DNA of 24,399 nt from a virus. Location of the stretch: the IMG/VR virus record IMGVR_UViG_3300042465_002645, positions 1-24,399 of that record. One strand, 5' to 3'. Positions 4,270 through 18,522 of the stretch are shown here, piece after piece (position 1 is the stretch's first letter; every line of letters begins with the position of its first letter). The position numbers and the translations under genes are program-made. The notes under the pieces are model-generated. The model was given only the letters and a program-made list of their open reading frames with translations, was not told the origin of the DNA and did no database searches.

Positions 4270-6051
4270 TTATTTCCTTTTGAGCTTCTTGTTGCTCAGT
4301 TCCATGAACATAGTATCGCGGTTCGTGGTCATTCTAACCCTGCCGCCTTTTGCCTTTTTAACTTCAGGTTCAACTTCTGGCTCTTGCATCTGCTCAGGCA
4401 TCTGGGATGCCGCACCAGCGCCAGCAGTTGGGATGCCAACCTGTTGGTACAGGGGTAGACCCTTCTGCTTGATGGACTCACGCATCTCTGGTGTGATGGG
4501 GAAGCTGTGGAGCTTCATAGCGCCAGCCTCATCCACCATCTTGTTGAAGTCGATGACCTCTTGAGGCGTCATCTCAGATAAGTTGCGACCTGCAACACCA
4601 AGGCGCTCTACAGTTGCACCGCGGTCACCCGGTATTGAGAACGTACCCATCTGTGCGTTATAGGGCTTGCCAAAGGTGTTCAGGTAGTCGGGCAGGATCT
4701 TGTCGTAGAAGCCCTTCATGCCTTCGCCGCCAACCTGAAGATCAATGCCAGATATTTCCTGATACGGAACATCTTTTCCGCCCTTGAAATTTAATTTGGT
4801 GTTTTGCTCATCAAAAAGGCGTTGTGCTGGCTCTTTGCCAATGTAATCTGCAACTTGGTCAGGCTTAACATTGCTGTGCATGACAACACTTTTATTGTTG
4901 TGGTCAAACGCATTCAACATCCCTGTATCTGGGCTGTAAACAACTCTACTAATCTGTTTACTTAAGTCATAGCGCTTAGCCTGCTCTGCGCCGGGGGTGA
5001 TGGCGATGCTGTCGTACCCATTGTCGGCGGCGTAGTTCAATAGGCGCTTCATTGCTAGCTCGTGCCAGTTCTTTTTGAAAGGGGCGTCAGGTACGCCAGA
5101 AGGTTGAGGCAATCTCCCCATGTTGCCCTTCATAGCATTTTCTGCGGCTTCAGCCGTCATGAATCCAGACATCTGTTCGCCATCAACATACGGATCAAAT
5201 CTTTGACCGTTAGCATCTTTAACTCGGTAAACGCCATAAGCATCTGCTTCAACACTGTATGGAGGCTTATCAGTACGATACCCTTTCTTGCGCCCTTCTT
5301 GATGCCAGTCAGACTGGATCTCTTCGACGTGCAAGATCTTCTCGCCGTTGGGGCCTTTGCGGTCTTGGACGCGCATGTGGGCTAGGACGTTAGCATCATC
5401 CTTCCAGTGAGAAGTTCTGTAGTCAGGTTGAGCGGTGAGTTGTTTATTTTTTAATGCAATAAGTTCTTGCATTTGGTTTTCTGGAATTTCACCACGACGC
5501 AGATCGGCTTCAATTGCCATGATGCGACTAGCTTCTTTATTGGTAAAAGCTTGCGGTAACTTCAGCAGGATCTCACGGTAGTTTTCACCATTTGGCGATT
5601 TGTACTTGCCATAAATTGTACCGTTGTCCATGTCCATTCGTTTGTAAACTTCATCCGAGATTCTTCGATGCCGTTCACCACCAAAGTTAATCTCGCTGTA
5701 TGGCACACGATACATCTCTTGCGACACCATCTCCCGAAGATCGTTTTCATCAATTGCAGTTTTGTCGTCAAATACTTTTTCTTTGAGCTGAGGTGGTGGG
5801 TTGTCTTTGAGGATTTGCTGAGCCTCTTCCTTGGTCATCTTGCCCTTGGCTTTGAATGCCTGCTCAAGCTTGCGATCAGCCAGCTCAGCCTTCTTCACGC
5901 CTGCCTGCTTGGTCAGCTCGGTGTAGAACTCAGCGCCTGTACCCTTGGGTCTCTTGATGGCGGCAAGCGCCTCATCCACGGCAGAGTAGAAGGGGGCGGT
6001 CTTCTTGGCAACGGGCAAGCCGAGCTGTAATGCCCCACGAACTAAGCTCAT
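4270..6051 (-). CDS. Polyvalent-type phage protein, 593 aa
   Basis: 593 residues of a kind common in uncultured aquatic phages, with no established enzymatic activity. Recognisable blocks are VLAHMRVQDR plus HVEEIQSDWHQEGRKKGY (about 220-260), WHELAMKRLLNYAADNGYDS (about 332-351) and LPLYQQVGIP near the C-terminus. These blocks recur in large multi-domain 'polyvalent' proteins thought to be packaged and injected with the DNA. The last 25 residues hold GGRVRMTTNRDTMFMELSNK, which resembles an internal segment of the neighbouring 1478-residue protein (GGKVSISNNPDTMMLAVNNQ). The N-terminus (LVRGALQLGLPVAKKTAP) also resembles a linker of that protein. The ATG overlaps the stop of the upstream gene as ATGA. 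An internal virion protein is the best guess. Confidence 0.7.
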   Translation of the reverse strand: MSLVRGALQLGLPVAKKTAPFYSAVDEALAAIKRPKGTGAEFYTELTKQAGVKKAELADRKLEQAFKAKGKMTKEEAQQILKDNPPPQLKEKVFDDKTAIDENDLREMVSQEMYRVPYSEINFGGERHRRISDEVYKRMDMDNGTIYGKYKSPNGENYREILLKLPQAFTNKEASRIMAIEADLRRGEIPENQMQELIALKNKQLTAQPDYRTSHWKDDANVLAHMRVQDRKGPNGEKILHVEEIQSDWHQEGRKKGYRTDKPPYSVEADAYGVYRVKDANGQRFDPYVDGEQMSGFMTAEAAENAMKGNMGRLPQPSGVPDAPFKKNWHELAMKRLLNYAADNGYDSIAITPGAEQAKRYDLSKQISRVVYSPDTGMLNAFDHNNKSVVMHSNVKPDQVADYIGKEPAQRLFDEQNTKLNFKGGKDVPYQEISGIDLQVGGEGMKGFYDKILPDYLNTFGKPYNAQMGTFSIPGDRGATVERLGVAGRNLSEMTPQEVIDFNKMVDEAGAMKLHSFPITPEMRESIKQKGLPLYQQVGIPTAGAGAASQMPEQMQEPEVEPEVKKAKGGRVRMTTNRDTMFMELSNKKLKRK

Positions 6052-9000
6052 AGTGGTCTCTCCTCCAAGATCAGGTCGTCACCACGGATAGCTCCACCAG
6101 CGGCTTTGTGCATTCCACTGTCAGCAACTTGCTGTGCCGCATCATCTACTGACAAGCCCTTGTTGACAAGGTCTACGATCTTGTTCAGGTTGTTCATGCT
6201 GTCTTTGATGCCGTACTTTTGAGCGGCTAGGACAAACTCATTTCCATCAATGTAGGCGGCAGGCTTCTTGATGTATCCGCCTTCCTTCTTGACAAGTCCA
6301 CCCTTCTTTTTGCCAAGCTTCTGCAACTCGGTCAAGATGTCTTCGGTGATCAATTGTGTAGGTGGATTGCCGCGGGTGTAGTCCATGTAGCCGGGCTTCC
6401 TGCCCTTCTCACGCATGGTCTTCTCGACAAAGTCCTTCATGACAATGTCGCGCTCGACTGGGGTAAACATCACGCCCAAATCCTCACCCTGCAAAATGGT
6501 TGGGAACGCTGGGTGCAGATCAGGTCGGTTAATGATGCCGCCGCTCAGGGTAAATAGACGATTGCCTAACGCGCCAGTAGGCTGATCTAGCAAGACAGGA
6601 TCAGTCGTACTGCGAATGATCTTGTCGTAATCAATGATTTGACCTTTCTTACCGCCAACCTGAACGCCACCCATCAAGTGACCAGCAACAGAGCGACGAC
6701 TAAACGTGTCGGCTACGTCCCTGAACTTTTTGTCCATGATGTCAACATTGGCGGGGAATACAGGGTTGCCTTTGTTGTCAACAGCCGCGGCTAACCGCAT
6801 GTTGATTAGGTCGCGCAGTTCAGGCGTCAACTCACCACGCTTGGCGGCTTTTTTAAAATCACCCAACAGCTTGTCAAACACCATTTGATTTGATTGATGT
6901 TGAGTAGGTGTACCAAGCATAGCCGCGTAGACAGCGTTGTCGCCTTCACCACCAAGGATGGTCTTAGCTGTGCCTGCGTTTTGCACCGCCCATGCCGCCT
7001 CAGCCGCACGGTACTCGGGTTCGGTGAGCTGTAGCCCAGAGAAGCCGGGGCCTCCTAAGTACCCACCGCCAACCTTCGTGCGGTCAGCCTGCGTAATTTT
7101 CAGTGGGCGCCCTTCGATCTTGCCTAGCGCCTCAGAAGCTTTCATGACTTCAGGCTTAGCCGCCTTTAGACCTTGCTTGATTGCCCCAGTCAGACCACCA
7201 CCTGCGTACTTAAAGTCTTCTAGCTTGCCAAACTTGGGGTTCTTTGCCAACACGAGAGGGCCAATCTGAATGACCTCTTCAGCATTGACAACAGGCGCCA
7301 TGGTCTCGCGGTCATAGAAGAAGCTGTGACGCTCTGGATCCATGCCAACCTGACGCCACTCTGGGTTCTTCAGGTACTGCTTAGCCAACGTGAACGCCTC
7401 GTCAGAGCTCGTGGGCTTCCACTTGCCTTCCATGGTGGCGATGGTGTTCTTCTCAGCTCCCTTGGCAATACCTAACGCCGCCTTGGGGCTGACGCTAAAG
7501 TCAACATCGGTCGCCATGGCAACAGGCTCGTAACCAATGCGTGTGCCTGCACCACCAGAGACTGGGCTCTTGCGGGGGCCGTGCGCCGTAACGACCCAAG
7601 TGTTCGCTTGGTTGTAGGACGGAATGTCTAGGCGCAGACCAACAGGGTCGCCTTCCTTCAGTGTTGAGGATGGCTTGCCGAAGTACGTCTCCTTGCGGGG
7701 TAGACCCTCAGCTTCACGGCTGGTTTTGGACAGTGCGGCTAGGATCTCTTCGCGGCTGGCTGGCGCTGGGACTGACTCATAGGGCGTAACGGGCTTATAA
7801 CGCTGTACAAGGCGCGCATACTCGTCGGCTGATATGTCACCAGCCTCAATACGTGCGGCGGCTTCCTGAAGCTCTGGTGTGCGCTTGAGAACGTCTTTGT
7901 GCGCCATGTTCACACGATCAACCGTAGGCTCAGGGAAACGCCTTGCCAAGTTCTCGACTTCAGCGGTGTTCATGTTGATAGGCAGGTCGTTGCCAAACTG
8001 CATGGATAGCCGCGGCACTTCGATCTTTGGAGGCTTAGCCGCCTTCAAACCCTTGCCGACTATGAGCTTGCCACCCGCATAAGCAGGCTCACCGTTCTTC
8101 ATCTTCTGGTTGTTGACAGCCAGCATCATGGTGTCAGGGTTGTTGGAGATGGAGACTTTGCCGCCTGCCTTCATGCCTGCGGCTGGTGGTGGCTTAGCGC
8201 CTAGTCCAAGCTCGTTGTAAGTATCTGCACCCAATTCTTTGAGCAACCAGTCAGCGTGTTCAGCAGGCGTCATGAGCTGATTGCCTTCACGGATCAAGCC
8301 TGTGTTCTTAAAATCGCCAATGTTAGACCACTTGCCACTTTTGACAAAGTCCTGCACGAATGGCAGGTAATCTGCTTTTGGTGCGGCGTTCTGCTTACCT
8401 TTGATCTGAGAGATGCTGAACGGCTCGTTTTCTTTTGCCATGCGCATTGCGATGTCAGATATATCGCGGTCTGTGTAGCCATGTGGCAATTTCTTGGCTT
8501 CTTCAGTTGCCGCTGGCATGTATTCTTTTACAACATCCCAGCGTAGAGCGTATTTACTTGGATGGGCCTCAACGGTGACGTGTGGCTCACCCTTAGAATC
8601 AATCAGCGAATAGACCTTGGCATCACCCCTTTTGATGGCATCCCAGCCACCATGACCATAGCTACTATATCCGCTGTCACCTGAATTTTTTGTCCAATCA
8701 GGATGACCTTCTGGTGGCTCGTAGCCTCGGACAGAGTGCCCCATGGCGTCTGACTCCGCGGCAAAGTCGCCGGGGCGGTTTAGCTCCACCCACTTGAGAC
8801 CTTCTGGGTATTCTTTGTACACAGGTAACTCAGCACGAGCGGTTAAGCGCGTCTCAGCCATCTTCTTAGCCAGCTCTTGGTCGTACTCATAGGTGCGGCG
8901 TACTGCCTGCTCCATGCTGACCTTGTTCAGTTGCTCAGGGCGAATGCGACCAGAGGCTACGTCTTCTTTGAGTACATCAATGATGTGGTCGAAGCCCAGC

Positions 9001-10484
9001 TCATACGTTGAGCCTGAGTACAGCCTTGTCTCTGGGTCAAGCTTGGCAACAAACGGATTAAGTTCACCAGCTCGTTTCTCAAAGCCTTGCTCTCTTGCCA
9101 GCAACTCATACAAATTGTCTTTCAACTCTTTGTACCTTGTGTCGCCTAAGATCTCTGCCTTTTGAATCTCAGGCATTCTCATGAGCATTTCAGCTTCTTT
9201 TGGGGTAAAGATTTCGTTGCCTGTGTGATCGCTCATGCGAGCAAGGAAGTTTTTATCAAGCTCTTTTGTGTAGGCGTCTATCTCCGCTCTGGCTTGTTCA
9301 ACCCTTTCGGAGATGTTCTTTGCATCTTGTATCTTGCCAGCCTTGGTTACCCTGATTGAATCATCGGTTATGTTTTCCCACTGCTTAGCAAGATCAGACT
9401 TGCCCATGCCCTCAGCAGGGTAGCCTTCCGCTTTACGTATGGCTTGCAGGTACTCCATGCGATCTAGGTCGTTGCGAAGGGGTGTATGAACGATACCTTC
9501 TTCAGCCAGCCTACGAACTGGGTCGTCAGGTGTACCCATTTCCTTCTTAACGTAGTTGGTCAAGTTGCTGTCGATCCACCTGTTTACGGCTACAGCGTCT
9601 CTTGTCTCATTGATGGCTCTCTCAACACCAACACGTATGTCAGGTGTAAGGCGAGCCAATGCTTCTGGCGTGTATTTCTCAGTTAGCTTTTTAAGTTGCG
9701 CCTCGGGTTCAAGGCTGTACCCAACTTTTCCCTTCAGCCTGCGAAGGTCGTTCTCAGGTAATGCCAACTGATCGCCACCGCCCAGCCAATTGCCACCGTA
9801 GGGCTTGATCACGTTGGACTGCGTGTTGGCACCCATCGCCATGACCATCTCACGAGGTAAGCCACCACGTTCAAAGGCGCCCTTGACGACGGGCTCCATA
9901 GCGCTCTCAAGCTTTCTGCCAACCTGCTCTGCGCCTCTACCTGCCGCTCTTGCGGCTTGAGCCGTGGCTGGGCCTGACAGGAACTGCAAAGGCAACGCCT
10001 CTGGCATCAATGGCGGGATCTTGTATTCGGTCTCGAGCTTCTCGAGGAAGTCGCCTACGTCACCTGCGTACTCATACGCCAAGGGTTGCTCAGGCTTGTA
10101 CATGCGCTCTTGCATGAACTTGTCAGCCGCCTCGTCACCCTTGAAGATGCGGGTAGGCAGGGAGTTAACAGCTTGCGTCAAGGCTGAGCCGAGGAAGCGT
10201 CCAGCTTGTAAGCCACCAGCCAGCTTCTCAAGTGGGGATCTGTCAGCCTGCACTTGGCGCATGAGGTCAGCATCACGCTCGGTAATGCGCCTGTTCAGCT
10301 CTAGGTTCTCTTTGGACGGGACGCTGAGGTCAACCGTTCCAAGCTTAGGGATGAACTCTTTGTAGTCTGGAAGTTCCATGGCGCGTTCGTCATACACAAA
10401 CGGCATTGGCTGGGCAGGCTTGAAGTTCTTCGCCTTGATGTTCCCAACTCGTGGGTAGAACGCTGGTTTGTTTTCGTCAGCCAT
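6048..10484 (-). CDS. Giant multi-domain polyvalent-type protein, 1478 aa
   Basis: 1478 residues, the largest gene here, between terminase and the 593-residue protein. No catalytic motif is certain. It reads as concatenated modules. Module 1 (1 to about 796) includes a segment like DAKVYSLIDSKGEPHVTVEA that is common in large phage/conjugative polyvalent proteins. It ends in GGKVSISNNPDTMMLAVNNQ, matching the C-terminus of the neighbour. Module 2 (about 800-1095) opens with YAGGKLIVGKGLKAAKP and has RHSFFYDRETMAPVVNAEEV near its end. Module 3 (about 1095-1478) opens with YAGGGLTGAIKQGLKAAKP and closes with AAGGAIRGDDLILEERPL. There are no clear membrane segments. The likely role is as an internal protein delivered with the genome. 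The 3' end overlaps the next gene as ATGA. The Shine-Dalgarno site is weak. Confidence 0.72.
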   Translation of the reverse strand: MADENKPAFYPRVGNIKAKNFKPAQPMPFVYDERAMELPDYKEFIPKLGTVDLSVPSKENLELNRRITERDADLMRQVQADRSPLEKLAGGLQAGRFLGSALTQAVNSLPTRIFKGDEAADKFMQERMYKPEQPLAYEYAGDVGDFLEKLETEYKIPPLMPEALPLQFLSGPATAQAARAAGRGAEQVGRKLESAMEPVVKGAFERGGLPREMVMAMGANTQSNVIKPYGGNWLGGGDQLALPENDLRRLKGKVGYSLEPEAQLKKLTEKYTPEALARLTPDIRVGVERAINETRDAVAVNRWIDSNLTNYVKKEMGTPDDPVRRLAEEGIVHTPLRNDLDRMEYLQAIRKAEGYPAEGMGKSDLAKQWENITDDSIRVTKAGKIQDAKNISERVEQARAEIDAYTKELDKNFLARMSDHTGNEIFTPKEAEMLMRMPEIQKAEILGDTRYKELKDNLYELLAREQGFEKRAGELNPFVAKLDPETRLYSGSTYELGFDHIIDVLKEDVASGRIRPEQLNKVSMEQAVRRTYEYDQELAKKMAETRLTARAELPVYKEYPEGLKWVELNRPGDFAAESDAMGHSVRGYEPPEGHPDWTKNSGDSGYSSYGHGGWDAIKRGDAKVYSLIDSKGEPHVTVEAHPSKYALRWDVVKEYMPAATEEAKKLPHGYTDRDISDIAMRMAKENEPFSISQIKGKQNAAPKADYLPFVQDFVKSGKWSNIGDFKNTGLIREGNQLMTPAEHADWLLKELGADTYNELGLGAKPPPAAGMKAGGKVSISNNPDTMMLAVNNQKMKNGEPAYAGGKLIVGKGLKAAKPPKIEVPRLSMQFGNDLPINMNTAEVENLARRFPEPTVDRVNMAHKDVLKRTPELQEAAARIEAGDISADEYARLVQRYKPVTPYESVPAPASREEILAALSKTSREAEGLPRKETYFGKPSSTLKEGDPVGLRLDIPSYNQANTWVVTAHGPRKSPVSGGAGTRIGYEPVAMATDVDFSVSPKAALGIAKGAEKNTIATMEGKWKPTSSDEAFTLAKQYLKNPEWRQVGMDPERHSFFYDRETMAPVVNAEEVIQIGPLVLAKNPKFGKLEDFKYAGGGLTGAIKQGLKAAKPEVMKASEALGKIEGRPLKITQADRTKVGGGYLGGPGFSGLQLTEPEYRAAEAAWAVQNAGTAKTILGGEGDNAVYAAMLGTPTQHQSNQMVFDKLLGDFKKAAKRGELTPELRDLINMRLAAAVDNKGNPVFPANVDIMDKKFRDVADTFSRRSVAGHLMGGVQVGGKKGQIIDYDKIIRSTTDPVLLDQPTGALGNRLFTLSGGIINRPDLHPAFPTILQGEDLGVMFTPVERDIVMKDFVEKTMREKGRKPGYMDYTRGNPPTQLITEDILTELQKLGKKKGGLVKKEGGYIKKPAAYIDGNEFVLAAQKYGIKDSMNNLNKIVDLVNKGLSVDDAAQQVADSGMHKAAGGAIRGDDLILEERPL

Positions 10485-16300: not shown

Positions 16301-16366
16301 ATCTTAACACGGAGTTAAAGCGCTTGTGAAGTCTTTTATAAATATTTTTATTAGGACAAACCCTAA
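16301..16366 (-). promoter_or_regulatory. Promoter with two palindromes
   Basis: Minus strand: -35 TTCACA (16330-16325), 18-base spacer, -10 TAAGAT (16306-16301). A perfect palindrome TTAAC-ACGGA-GTTAA (16304-16318) overlaps the -10. Further upstream is TTAGG-ACAAAC-CCTAA (16351-16366), similar to the TAGGGA palindrome at the 15.6 kb promoter. The sequence between (16331-16350) is very AT-rich and could act as an UP element. It would drive the 97-residue gene and those below. Confidence 0.65.
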
Positions 16367-16635
16367 CCTTTCATCAAAAGGGCAACGACCCTCTCGATGG
16401 TGACGTTCAGGGCGTCCTGCTCGTCCATCTTCATCACCGACCACATGCGTCTCTGCCCGTGCCAGCCATTGAAGCTCCCTTGGTGGCAGTCCTTGCACAG
16501 AGCCACGCAGGTGTACTGCCTATGCTGTTTGACGTGGTGGGCATCACTCGGTGGGGATGCATCACACACAGAGCACGGGAGCTCTTTGACAAGCCCCACG
16601 TAAGCGCGTTCTTTTGCTGTGAGAGTGTTATTCAT
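16363..16635 (-). CDS. Small HNH-like zinc protein, 90 aa
   Basis: 90 residues from the ATG at 16635; two more codons would need a TTG. Metal-binding pattern: C21-x2-C24 (LPCSVCDASPP), then HH at 33-34 (DAHHVKQHRQYTC), C47-x2-C50-H51 (ALCKDCHQG) and NGWHGQRRMW. This is the layout of HNH-type nucleases, close to short phage recombination-region nucleases such as Ref- or NinG-like proteins; I cannot tell which. The end is helical (DEQDALNVTIERVVALLMKG). It overlaps the glycosyltransferase gene by eight bases. Nuclease activity is inferred from the motif only. Confidence 0.65.
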   Translation of the reverse strand: MNNTLTAKERAYVGLVKELPCSVCDASPPSDAHHVKQHRQYTCVALCKDCHQGSFNGWHGQRRMWSVMKMDEQDALNVTIERVVALLMKG

Positions 16636-17491
16636 TGACAAGCCTCATGCCGTATTCGTTTGTGCCTTCGGGGATCACCAGCCCGTCACGTTTGACAAGC
16701 CTGTTCTTTTTGAATCTGTTGTAGTCCACAAAATGATGCCAACGGTCAAACTTCCACACCACCCTTGCGACGTCTGGGTGCAACTCCTCGAGCATCTGTG
16801 ACTTGGGCATAGTGCCCTCGGTTGCGTAGAAGGCTTCAGTGTTGCCGCCACCCATTGATTGGGTTCTAACCTTGTTTTGCAAAAATGCATTGAACTGCAC
16901 GGTGCACATGCCGTCTTTAAGTGCGCGCAGGGATAGGTGTGTGTCTTCGTTGTAGCGCCCCTCCCAGCGGTGTTTAAGCGCGTTTTCAATCAGCAGGCAG
17001 GAGTAGATGCGGGTGTTCAAAACAAACGGCGGAGGCGTGTCTTTACGCTTGGCGAACATGGAGTAGTTGAATCCAGCAATAGGCACGTTGGTGTAGCGCT
17101 CGACAAAGTCCTCAGCCGCACGGAATATTGCTGGCGTTTCGCACTTGATCTTCATGTTGCGGTTAAGGCGGTGAAAGCCATCGATGTTGTCGTCTAGCAC
17201 CCAGTGTCGGGTGGCGCCCAAAGAGAGGGAGTGATCCCATGCGAAGTTACGAGCGGCGCCGGGGCCTCTGCTCTTCACATCCCCCAGCTCATCACATGTC
17301 ACGTAGTTGTCGAGATAGCTCTGCGGCAACACCACCAACCTATGCACGTCTACGCTACTTGCGTAGTTATCGAATTCCTGCTCCTCGACCACCACGCGGT
17401 ACTCGGCGCCCATACGGTCAAGCGCATCTGCGGTGAGCGTCTTTCCCCAGCGCCCTTTAGAAACAATGTAGATCGGATGCTTAGGCTTCAT
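16628..17491 (-). CDS. TET-associated-type glycosyltransferase (TAGT)
   Basis: 287 residues from the ATG at 17491 (an ATG two codons earlier is also possible; there is no clear Shine-Dalgarno site). The sequence has the hallmarks of the TET-associated glycosyltransferase family: PIYIVSKGRWG at the N-terminus, GPGAARNFAWDHS, HWVLDDNIDGF with a DDN metal/nucleotide-sugar site at about 100-102, NTRIYSCLLIENA, GRYNEDTHLSLRALKDG with a second acidic site (NED, about 181-183), FNAFLQNK, GGGNTEAFY and RWHHFVDY. Family members are proposed to add sugar to hydroxymethylated bases in phage DNA. No TET/JBP oxygenase or hydroxymethylase is in the window, so the substrate is unknown. It overlaps the 88-residue partner gene by 11 bases, suggesting a common task. 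Confidence 0.78.
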   Translation of the reverse strand: MKPKHPIYIVSKGRWGKTLTADALDRMGAEYRVVVEEQEFDNYASSVDVHRLVVLPQSYLDNYVTCDELGDVKSRGPGAARNFAWDHSLSLGATRHWVLDDNIDGFHRLNRNMKIKCETPAIFRAAEDFVERYTNVPIAGFNYSMFAKRKDTPPPFVLNTRIYSCLLIENALKHRWEGRYNEDTHLSLRALKDGMCTVQFNAFLQNKVRTQSMGGGNTEAFYATEGTMPKSQMLEELHPDVARVVWKFDRWHHFVDYNRFKKNRLVKRDGLVIPEGTNEYGMRLVNE

Positions 17492-17747
17492 CGACATACC
17501 GCTTGTCTGCAAGTGTTGCCTTCTCTTGAGCTGGGAACCACACTGAGCTTGTCTTGGTGGTTACGCTCTGCCCAATGAGCTTGGCAAACGCCTGAAGGCT
17601 TTCCACGCTGTCAAAGTTCACACGAAGGGAGTAGACGGGTAGCAGGTTCTTTTGCTCGTACTCAGGCATTCCAGCCCACTCCTCGCGCCACGACTCCTGT
17701 TCTCCGAAGAGAACATGCTGGTCGTCGTTGGGCTTTGCGTAAGGCAT
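17481..17747 (-). CDS. Small conserved protein coupled to the glycosyltransferase, 88 aa
   Basis: 88 residues from the ATG at 17747, chosen because it forms TAATG with the upstream stop; the same frame is open to 17834 but that would run through the neighbour. Conserved-looking elements are ESWREEWAGMPEYEQKNLLP, a strand (VYSLRVNFDSVESLQAF) and AKLIGQSVTTKTSSVWFP. The 'W..eW.gMPe...FakLigq..T.kT.siW.P' pattern recurs in short phage proteins, often beside DNA-modification genes; no activity is known to me. Tight coupling to the glycosyltransferase suggests a role in base modification or substrate delivery. Confidence 0.7.
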   Translation of the reverse strand: MPYAKPNDDQHVLFGEQESWREEWAGMPEYEQKNLLPVYSLRVNFDSVESLQAFAKLIGQSVTTKTSSVWFPAQEKATLADKRYVDEA

Positions 17748-18097
17748 TACAGGGTTGCCTTCTCGACGTGGCGGTTGGAAGCCTCCATAGAGCGCCATAC
17801 GGCGATTCTTTCCTGACAGGCTATGAGGAGCCATCTGAGGCGTTCGCGCTCCTCTACGGCTTGTCTAAGGGCTTGCAAATGCTCTTTGTAGCGTGGGGAG
17901 GCGTAGGCTTCGCGTTCCTGCATGGCGGCGGTCTTGTACTCACCGTTGCCGTACACCTCAGCGTTTTTCATCTCTTCTGCCTTGATGGTCTTCCTCAGCT
18001 CCTCCATGTACACCTTTGTTGCCTCTGCCTCTGCATACTTGGCGGAGTGGGCGATCATGAAGTCGACTGCGTCATTGGGGTCAATAAGCTTGCTCAT
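17747..18097 (-). CDS. Conserved phage protein, 116 aa
   Basis: 116 residues, largely helical. The N-terminus LIDPNDAVDFMIAHSAKYAE and the C-terminal ALRQAVEERERLRWLLIACQ followed by ERIAVWRSMEASNR match a conserved family of uncharacterised phage proteins that tends to sit near recombination and replication genes. Long charged helices suggest a dimeric coiled coil. Linked by ATGA to the RusA-like gene and by TAATG to the 88-residue gene, so it is co-translated with recombination and modification genes. Confidence 0.75.
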   Translation of the reverse strand: MSKLIDPNDAVDFMIAHSAKYAEAEATKVYMEELRKTIKAEEMKNAEVYGNGEYKTAAMQEREAYASPRYKEHLQALRQAVEERERLRWLLIACQERIAVWRSMEASNRHVEKATL

Positions 18098-18522
18098 GTT
18101 TGTTCCTTAATTTCAACAATAAGTTTTCCGGGTTTTGTTCCAAATTTTCTGTAGATCATGATGGGCTGAAAGAGCTGGTCATTCACCATCATTGCGTCGG
18201 CTAAGCCGTCCAGCGCTCCCTTTGCCGCGGCTAAGCAATTGTCCGCGTCGCGCTTTCGTTTATCAGGCATCTCAAACGTCAGCGTAAGCTTGATGTCCTT
18301 GCCTGCGTGTTTCCAGCCCTTGAGTTGGTGCTTAGCCAACCATGTGCTGTTCTCACGGTAGTCTGATCGTAGTTGGTAGAGCTTGCCCCAGTGAGTGCCC
18401 TTAGCCCTGTTTGGGAACAGCTCCGCTGGTGGGAAGTCGAGCTCGACGCGAATCACGCTCCGTTTGCATTCTTCGCACAAGGTCGTCACAAGCGGGTTGC
18501 CCTCTACGTTTTGCGATGTCAT
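18094..18522 (-). CDS. rusA: RusA-type Holliday junction resolvase
   Basis: 142 residues. A basic, strand-rich N-terminus (VIRVELDFPPAELFPNRAKG) is followed by the family core EMPDKRKRDADNCLAAAKGA and LDGLADAMMVNDQLF. D92, D94 and D115 line up with the catalytic aspartates of E. coli RusA (D70, D72, D91), and K101 is near the conserved lysine. RusA cuts four-way junctions formed in phage recombination and DNA maturation. A pair of cysteines near the start (CEECK) is an extra not needed for the fold. Strong AAGGAG nine bases before the ATG, inside the end of the upstream gene. Confidence 0.85.
   Translation of the reverse strand: MTSQNVEGNPLVTTLCEECKRSVIRVELDFPPAELFPNRAKGTHWGKLYQLRSDYRENSTWLAKHQLKGWKHAGKDIKLTLTFEMPDKRKRDADNCLAAAKGALDGLADAMMVNDQLFQPIMIYRKFGTKPGKLIVEIKEQT

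Follow-up and report, generated by a model that had tools for sequence, protein, structure and literature searches.

A Split TET-Associated Glycosyltransferase from an Uncultivated Virus Belongs to a Partner-Marked Subfamily Apparently Separate from TET

The stretch of DNA analyzed here (the window), 24,399 bases long, spans an entire IMG/VR record, which is a linear fragment from an uncultivated virus. It carries two overlapping genes that probably encode a bipartite, TET-independent TET-associated-type glycosyltransferase (TAGT) most likely glycosylating phage DNA. New here are an obligate partner domain, its split, fused, and ParB-linked architectures, and the separation of the enzymes that bear it from TET.

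The Catalytic Half and Its Operon

The catalytic half is a TAGT-family GT-A glycosyltransferase (GT) of 287 residues, encoded on the minus strand (16628..17491) by a frame that runs from the ATG at 17491 to the stop at 16628; an alternative in-frame ATG at 17497 would add two residues. The protein matches PF20691 (TET-associated glycosyltransferase) with 161.5 bits (E=3.4e-47; curated cut-off 27.5 bits) and PHROG 842 with E=7e-51, which upholds the family call of the initial annotation; the blocks that it quoted (IYIVSKGRWG, HWVLDDN, NTRIYSCLLIEN, and GRYNEDT, with WREEWAGMPE in the partner) are all present. The window GT retains all columns that are at least 90% conserved in 60 family rows, and the acidic metal/donor motif and catalytic residues are intact (D100-D101-N102, R81-N82, N181-E182-D183, and H253). 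The dN/dS of the GT, measured against seven close relatives, is 0.03–0.09, a range that together with the PF20691 E-value rules out chance or mis-called open reading frames. Neither phmmer nor profile searches returned a sequence relative of known structure.

The partner, an 88-residue protein here termed the N-domain (WxxEWxGMPE ... TxSxWxP ... RYVDE), is encoded directly upstream on the same strand (17481..17747). The two genes overlap by 11 bases (17481..17491), as first described, with the GT start codon lying inside the RYVDE-coding end of the partner gene. Directly upstream of the partner gene, and overlapping it by 1 base (TAATG), is a gene for a 116-residue protein (17747..18097, minus strand) with no Pfam or PHROGs family above threshold. 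This is preceded by a RusA-type Holliday junction resolvase gene (18094..18522, minus strand; PF05866, 1.3e-5; phrog_34, 5.8e-19), whose 4-base overlap with the 116-residue gene places it in the same operon. Downstream, a small gene (16363..16635, minus strand, start ATG at 16635) overlaps the GT gene by 8 bases; its product matches phrog_1588 and, more weakly, HNH endonuclease families. The resulting order, RusA resolvase, 116-residue protein, partner, GT, and phrog_1588 protein, with overlaps of 4, 1, 11, and 8 bases, forms a tight operon in a setting of RusA, HNH-like, and replication genes. Elsewhere in the window are two adjoining, very long open reading frames (4270–6051 and 6048–10484, minus strand; 593 and 1478 residues, overlapping by 4 bases); the relative G007 has a single 1809-residue frame at the same place, between terminase and portal, which matches the 593-residue frame of the window.

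The Small Partner Is a Domain of the Enzyme

The partner is homologous to the N-terminal ∼100 residues of single-chain TAGTs from Aeh1, PTm1, and other phages, a region with the consensus W..W.GMPEF...I.V.F...ED...F...Q..T.KTKSIWYP...RYV that is covered by no Pfam family and no PHROG. The cultured Aeromonas phages Aeh1 and 65, Tenacibaculum phage PTm1, phage POP12, and Vibrio phages Kuja, 1.076.O, and 1.124.O carry the domain fused in frame, in a single chain of 386–473 residues with the GT as its C-terminal part, whereas in the window the WxxMPEF...TKSIWYP domain that marks this subfamily lies directly beside the GT as a separate protein (17481–17747).

The N-domain motif was searched as a DNA pattern, blind to the GT, and found in at least 120 viral stretches. 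Among the 120 matches listed, 119 code for an N-domain and 114 also have a TAGT; the five N-domains without a TAGT all lie at the edge of a stretch. The reverse search, from the GT, found an N-domain at 113 of 114 viral GT loci (counted as distinct at 95% identity), the sole exception starting at a contig edge, and at 49 of 54 GT loci on bacterial genome contigs, where the other five are edge-cut or partial GT frames. Among the N-domain frames found, the domain has its own gene immediately ahead of the GT in 116 cases, is fused to it in 21, and is parted from it by other gene(s) or a gap in 17, while a few N-domain frames follow the GT or are cut. The commonest junction in relatives is the 11-nt overlap seen in the window (68 pairs), followed by overlaps of 4 nt (22) and 8 nt (17). 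The in-frame fusions and the near one-to-one linkage rule out that the partner is an unrelated neighbor, and the earlier view that the small gene belongs with the enzyme is borne out by homology, fusions, and locus counts alike. At the level of sequence comparison, TAGT family membership, the intact catalytic motifs, and the near-exclusive linkage of the two halves are established.

The window GT falls inside an N-domain clade of 61 rows (support 98/98), apart from six other rows, in a tree that is weakened by long branches and by similarity-based sampling. Fused rows are scattered at several places in this clade, which implies that fusion or splitting has recurred. An N-domain-less Porphyromonas TAGT also falls inside the clade, on a very long branch. 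In Porphyromonas phage005b (L238, 15327–17109), an annotated ParB-like partition gene overlaps a distant TAGT beside the terminase, with no N-domain detected at this locus.

Several relatives elaborate on the pair. Kuja has two tandem, overlapping N-domain TAGT paralogs (L050, 31594–32952 and 30264–31604), and in Aeh1 (L046:8882–9094) and POP12 (L049:6831–7028) the fused TAGT gene is directly followed by a gene for a second small N-domain-like protein. A SAM methyltransferase gene lies between the N-domain and GT genes at six loci (L083, L088, L098, L100, L107, and L114); at others this place is taken by FkbM (L077 and L164), an extra TAGT-like gene (L059 and L127), or a group 1 GT (L075). The second TAGT paralog of L127 has no match among cultured phages. 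The presence of a methyltransferase or a second GT between the two genes suggests possible methylation or extension of the sugar once it is attached.

Predicted Structure of a Fused Relative

An AlphaFold2 model of L134, a natural fusion of N-domain and TAGT (373 residues), stands in for the window protein, its GT being ∼49% identical to that of the window. The model has a pLDDT of 91.8 and a pTM of 0.89, with values of 81–97 per ten-residue block in the conserved N-domain core. In contrast, the window N-domain modeled alone from a 70-row alignment gave a pLDDT of 76.6, a pTM of 0.45, and no strand. The difference between the confident fused model and the poor lone model suggests that the two halves, predicted in this way, fold as one unit.

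The fold of the L134 model is that of GT-A enzymes (Z 12–14, rmsd 3–5 Å over ∼190–240 residues). Its top Foldseek match is the collagen galactosyltransferase COLGALT1, and in the PDB it is matched best by transferases that act on proteins and polysaccharides. Of the named viral models, TAGTs are the nearest; the fold matches also include T-even-type proteins and a Klebsiella phage beta-glucosyl-HMC-alpha-glucosyltransferase. The BFVD entry A0A6G6XN95, an 890-residue viral protein with further regions, is 43% identical to the N-domain TAGT model over 370 alignment columns.

Comparison with Known Systems

The TAGT of T2/T6 puts a second glucose on alpha-glucosyl-hmC DNA (PMC13216743; PMC13390438). 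Like the window GT, this beta-1,6-glucosyl-alpha-glucose transferase is phage-borne, matches PF20691 and PHROG 842, and has a GT-A fold. However, the T2 TAGT has no N-domain, adjoins gene 42, and acts after the alpha-GT; it scores 35.7 bits against PF20691, compared with 161.5 for the window GT, and the two proteins have no significant pairwise similarity. Nonlabens phage P12024L, with its TET-TAGT-methyltransferase operon, similarly has a PF20691-type GT in a phage DNA-metabolism region, as does the window, but there a TET/JBP gene lies directly upstream of the TAGT, the N-domain is lacking, and the sequence is distant (59.6 bits, local profile). Both the T2 and the P12024L TAGTs lie outside the N-domain clade, although the T2 branch is very long.

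In contrast, the single-chain TAGTs of Aeh1, 65, PTm1, 1.076.O, 1.124.O, and Kuja are the same enzyme as that of the window (GT identity 47–60%), differing in that N-domain and TAGT form one gene there and two overlapping genes here. The Aeh1 glucosyltransferase (Aeh1ORF087c), which appears to be the Aeh1 N-domain TAGT, is entered in a listing in PMC8056088 (citing Iyer et al. 2013) as one that “presumably modifies DNA, unknown base,” and PMC2993671 reports no gene 42 for either Aeh1 or 65. A 2026 survey counted 753 phage genomes with homologs of T-even-type DNA glucosyltransferases; 288 of them have a TAGT alone, and the chemistry of such solitary TAGTs is a recognized open problem (PMC13216743). 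In view of the T2/T6 role, the Aeh1 listing, and this survey, neither the enzyme class nor the proposal of a DNA target is new.

ParB_N Domains and the Nature of the Target

N-terminal extensions of more than 100 residues are present on the partner frame at ∼24 viral loci and at roughly half of the bacterial-contig loci. The extended partners scanned often match PF02195 (ParB_N), above the cut-off in L057, L242, and L267 and more weakly in others, and at two loci a ParB_N-like region, an N-domain, and a TAGT lie in a single frame (L070:1254–2837, 528 residues; L271:2219–4288, 690 residues). ParBc domains are described as binding DNA and as common fusion partners of DNA methyltransferases (PMC12783734). 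The linkage of ParB_N to the TAGT partners is the chief new hint of a DNA target. The CmoX systems show a comparable arrangement, in which ParB_N (PF02195) proteins accompany phage DNA methyltransferases: as with the ParB-N-domain and TAGT pairs, ParB_N goes with an enzyme that modifies bases, but the partner enzyme there is a carboxymethyl- or methyltransferase (PMC12783734). The window's own 88-residue partner differs in this respect, having no PF02195 match and no room for a ParB_N domain.

Together with the T2/T6 family members, the ParB fusions make DNA the most likely target, by analogy, and the DNA hypermodification proposed in the initial annotation stays the leading reading, although the TET route attached to it does not. 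The main rival, which we judge unlikely, is a non-DNA acceptor, i.e. a virion protein, host protein, tRNA, or surface glycan, in which case both the ParB domains and the family name would mislead. The GT-A fold is common to protein, lipid, and glycan transferases, and the compact genomes that carry these enzymes without an acceptor-making enzyme would suit such a target. In some phages, moreover, the N-domain TAGT sits between portal and head genes, and some N-domain TAGTs lie near sugar epimerase, FkbM, and terminase genes, which fits glycosylation of a glycan or a virion protein. Against this, the only family members with an assigned chemistry act on phage DNA, the ParB_N linkage is repeated and includes one-frame fusions, and the window operon groups the pair with RusA and replication genes.

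Search for an Acceptor-Making Enzyme

In agreement with the initial annotation, which saw no oxygenase, hydroxymethylase, or other base-modifying gene in the window, profile searches of the record gave no Tet_JBP, thymidylate synthase (TS)-family, or C5-methylase match. Tet_JBP (PF12851) was found in none of 87 records with an N-domain TAGT, the window fragment included, by a search that recovered the TET of P12024L (2.8e-29). The TS family (PF00303) was found in none of 72 uncultivated records (the window and 71 others) and in neither small Vibrio phage, by a search that detected T2 gene 42, whereas a TS-family gene is present in each of the six large cultured phages whose TAGT is fused. C5-methylase (PF00145) was found in 4 of 48 records, one match being weak. 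As these families are lacking in the window and rare in its relatives, the classical acceptor appears to be missing.

The acceptor-making enzyme had earlier been supposed to lie elsewhere in the genome, a suggestion weakened by relatives that cover the rest of the lineage's gene set. G003, whose GT is 95% identical to that of the window, extends 27 kb past the window's right end, and its scanned proteins serve in replication, tails, lysis, and homing; G075 leaves little uncovered apart from the terminase-portal block of the lineage. Neither has a Tet_JBP, TS, or C5-methylase match, and such an enzyme is likely to be absent from this phage too, as judged from relatives whose coverage is composite and partly fragmentary. 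Terminal repeats, sought as a mark of completeness, occur in just two records, G033 (123 bp) and G070 (60 bp); a further repeat of 16 bp in G051 may be chance. Nor is an acceptor-making gene shared near the GT: TAGT itself is the sole protein family that the window shares with 22 relatives, and the neighbors at 88 non-redundant loci are ordinary phage genes. For the first glucosyltransferase of the T-even glucosyl-hmC pathway (alpha-GT or beta-GT; PF11440 and PF09198), the few proteins scanned between partner and GT in relatives gave no match. G075 encodes a 2OG-Fe(II) oxygenase in its tail region (L225:14259–14873; PF13759, phrog_81), which is not of the TET/JBP type. Proteins of phrog_1574, with weak GT-like Pfam hits, are encoded near the N-domain TAGT in L022 (12193–13041) and in the tail region of G003 (L174:8448–9197).

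The TS-family genes of the large relatives raise the question of a 5-hydroxymethylpyrimidine acceptor made at the nucleotide level by a TS-family hydroxymethylase, which in the window's lineage would be host-carried or missed; we regard this as improbable. The usual YGxQWR motif is replaced in the TS homologs that phage 65 and Kuja carry, and PTm1 encodes a second, divergent TS paralog. Relatives of Kuja in the same family, of the ViI-like type, use hmdU (PMC3184105); by analogy with them, the TS homologs of the large relatives might make hydroxymethyl pyrimidines. PHROGs calls the Kuja and phage 65 proteins thymidylate synthase, and their nearest records are annotated likewise. The lack of the family from the uncultivated records and the small Vibrio phages speaks against such an acceptor, as do the Aeromonas phages CC2, AS-zj, and ZPAH1, which carry a phage-65-type TS with no detectable N-domain TAGT and so indicate that the two genes do not travel together.

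An ordinary TET/JBP-dependent TAGT, acting on hydroxymethyl bases made by an oxygenase elsewhere in the phage, is highly improbable: the window is a fragment and operons such as that of P12024L do exist, but the validated Tet_JBP search was negative throughout, including in the relatives that cover the other half of the lineage's genome, and the TAGTs of P12024L and T2, neither of which has an N-domain, branch outside the N-domain clade. The link to TET/JBP-oxidized bases drawn in the initial annotation is thus not upheld for this separate, partner-marked subfamily, the TET-linked TAGT of P12024L having no partner.

Proposed Mode of Action

In the bipartite, DNA-directed enzyme that we favor, the GT-A catalytic half and the small N-terminal domain would work together as one glycosyltransferase, the latter being made in the window as a separate, translationally coupled protein and in many relatives as part of the same chain. 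With a nucleotide sugar as donor, the enzyme would glycosylate a base of phage DNA post-replicatively, and the sugar may protect that DNA from nucleases. The N-domain, plus the ParB_N domain attached to it in many relatives, may help to hold or choose the DNA site. No TET/JBP product would be used; the acceptor hydroxyl may be supplied by the host or by an unrecognized enzyme, or prior modification of the base may be unnecessary. As a tentative and rather doubtful extension, N-domain TAGTs could be self-sufficient DNA glycosyltransferases, in which the GT and its obligate partner, often with ParB_N, need no phage TET, hydroxymethylase, or C5-methylase and place the sugar either on the amine of an unmodified base or on a base made by the host, possibly at selected sites.

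The window carries a member of an apparently distinct group of solitary TAGTs, defined by an obligate partner domain outside Pfam and PHROGs. Expression of the catalytic gene by itself, where the genome has the split form, would probably test half an enzyme, and the genomes worth assaying are small ones without acceptor enzymes. For N-domain TAGTs, the misleading expectation of a TET partner is removed.
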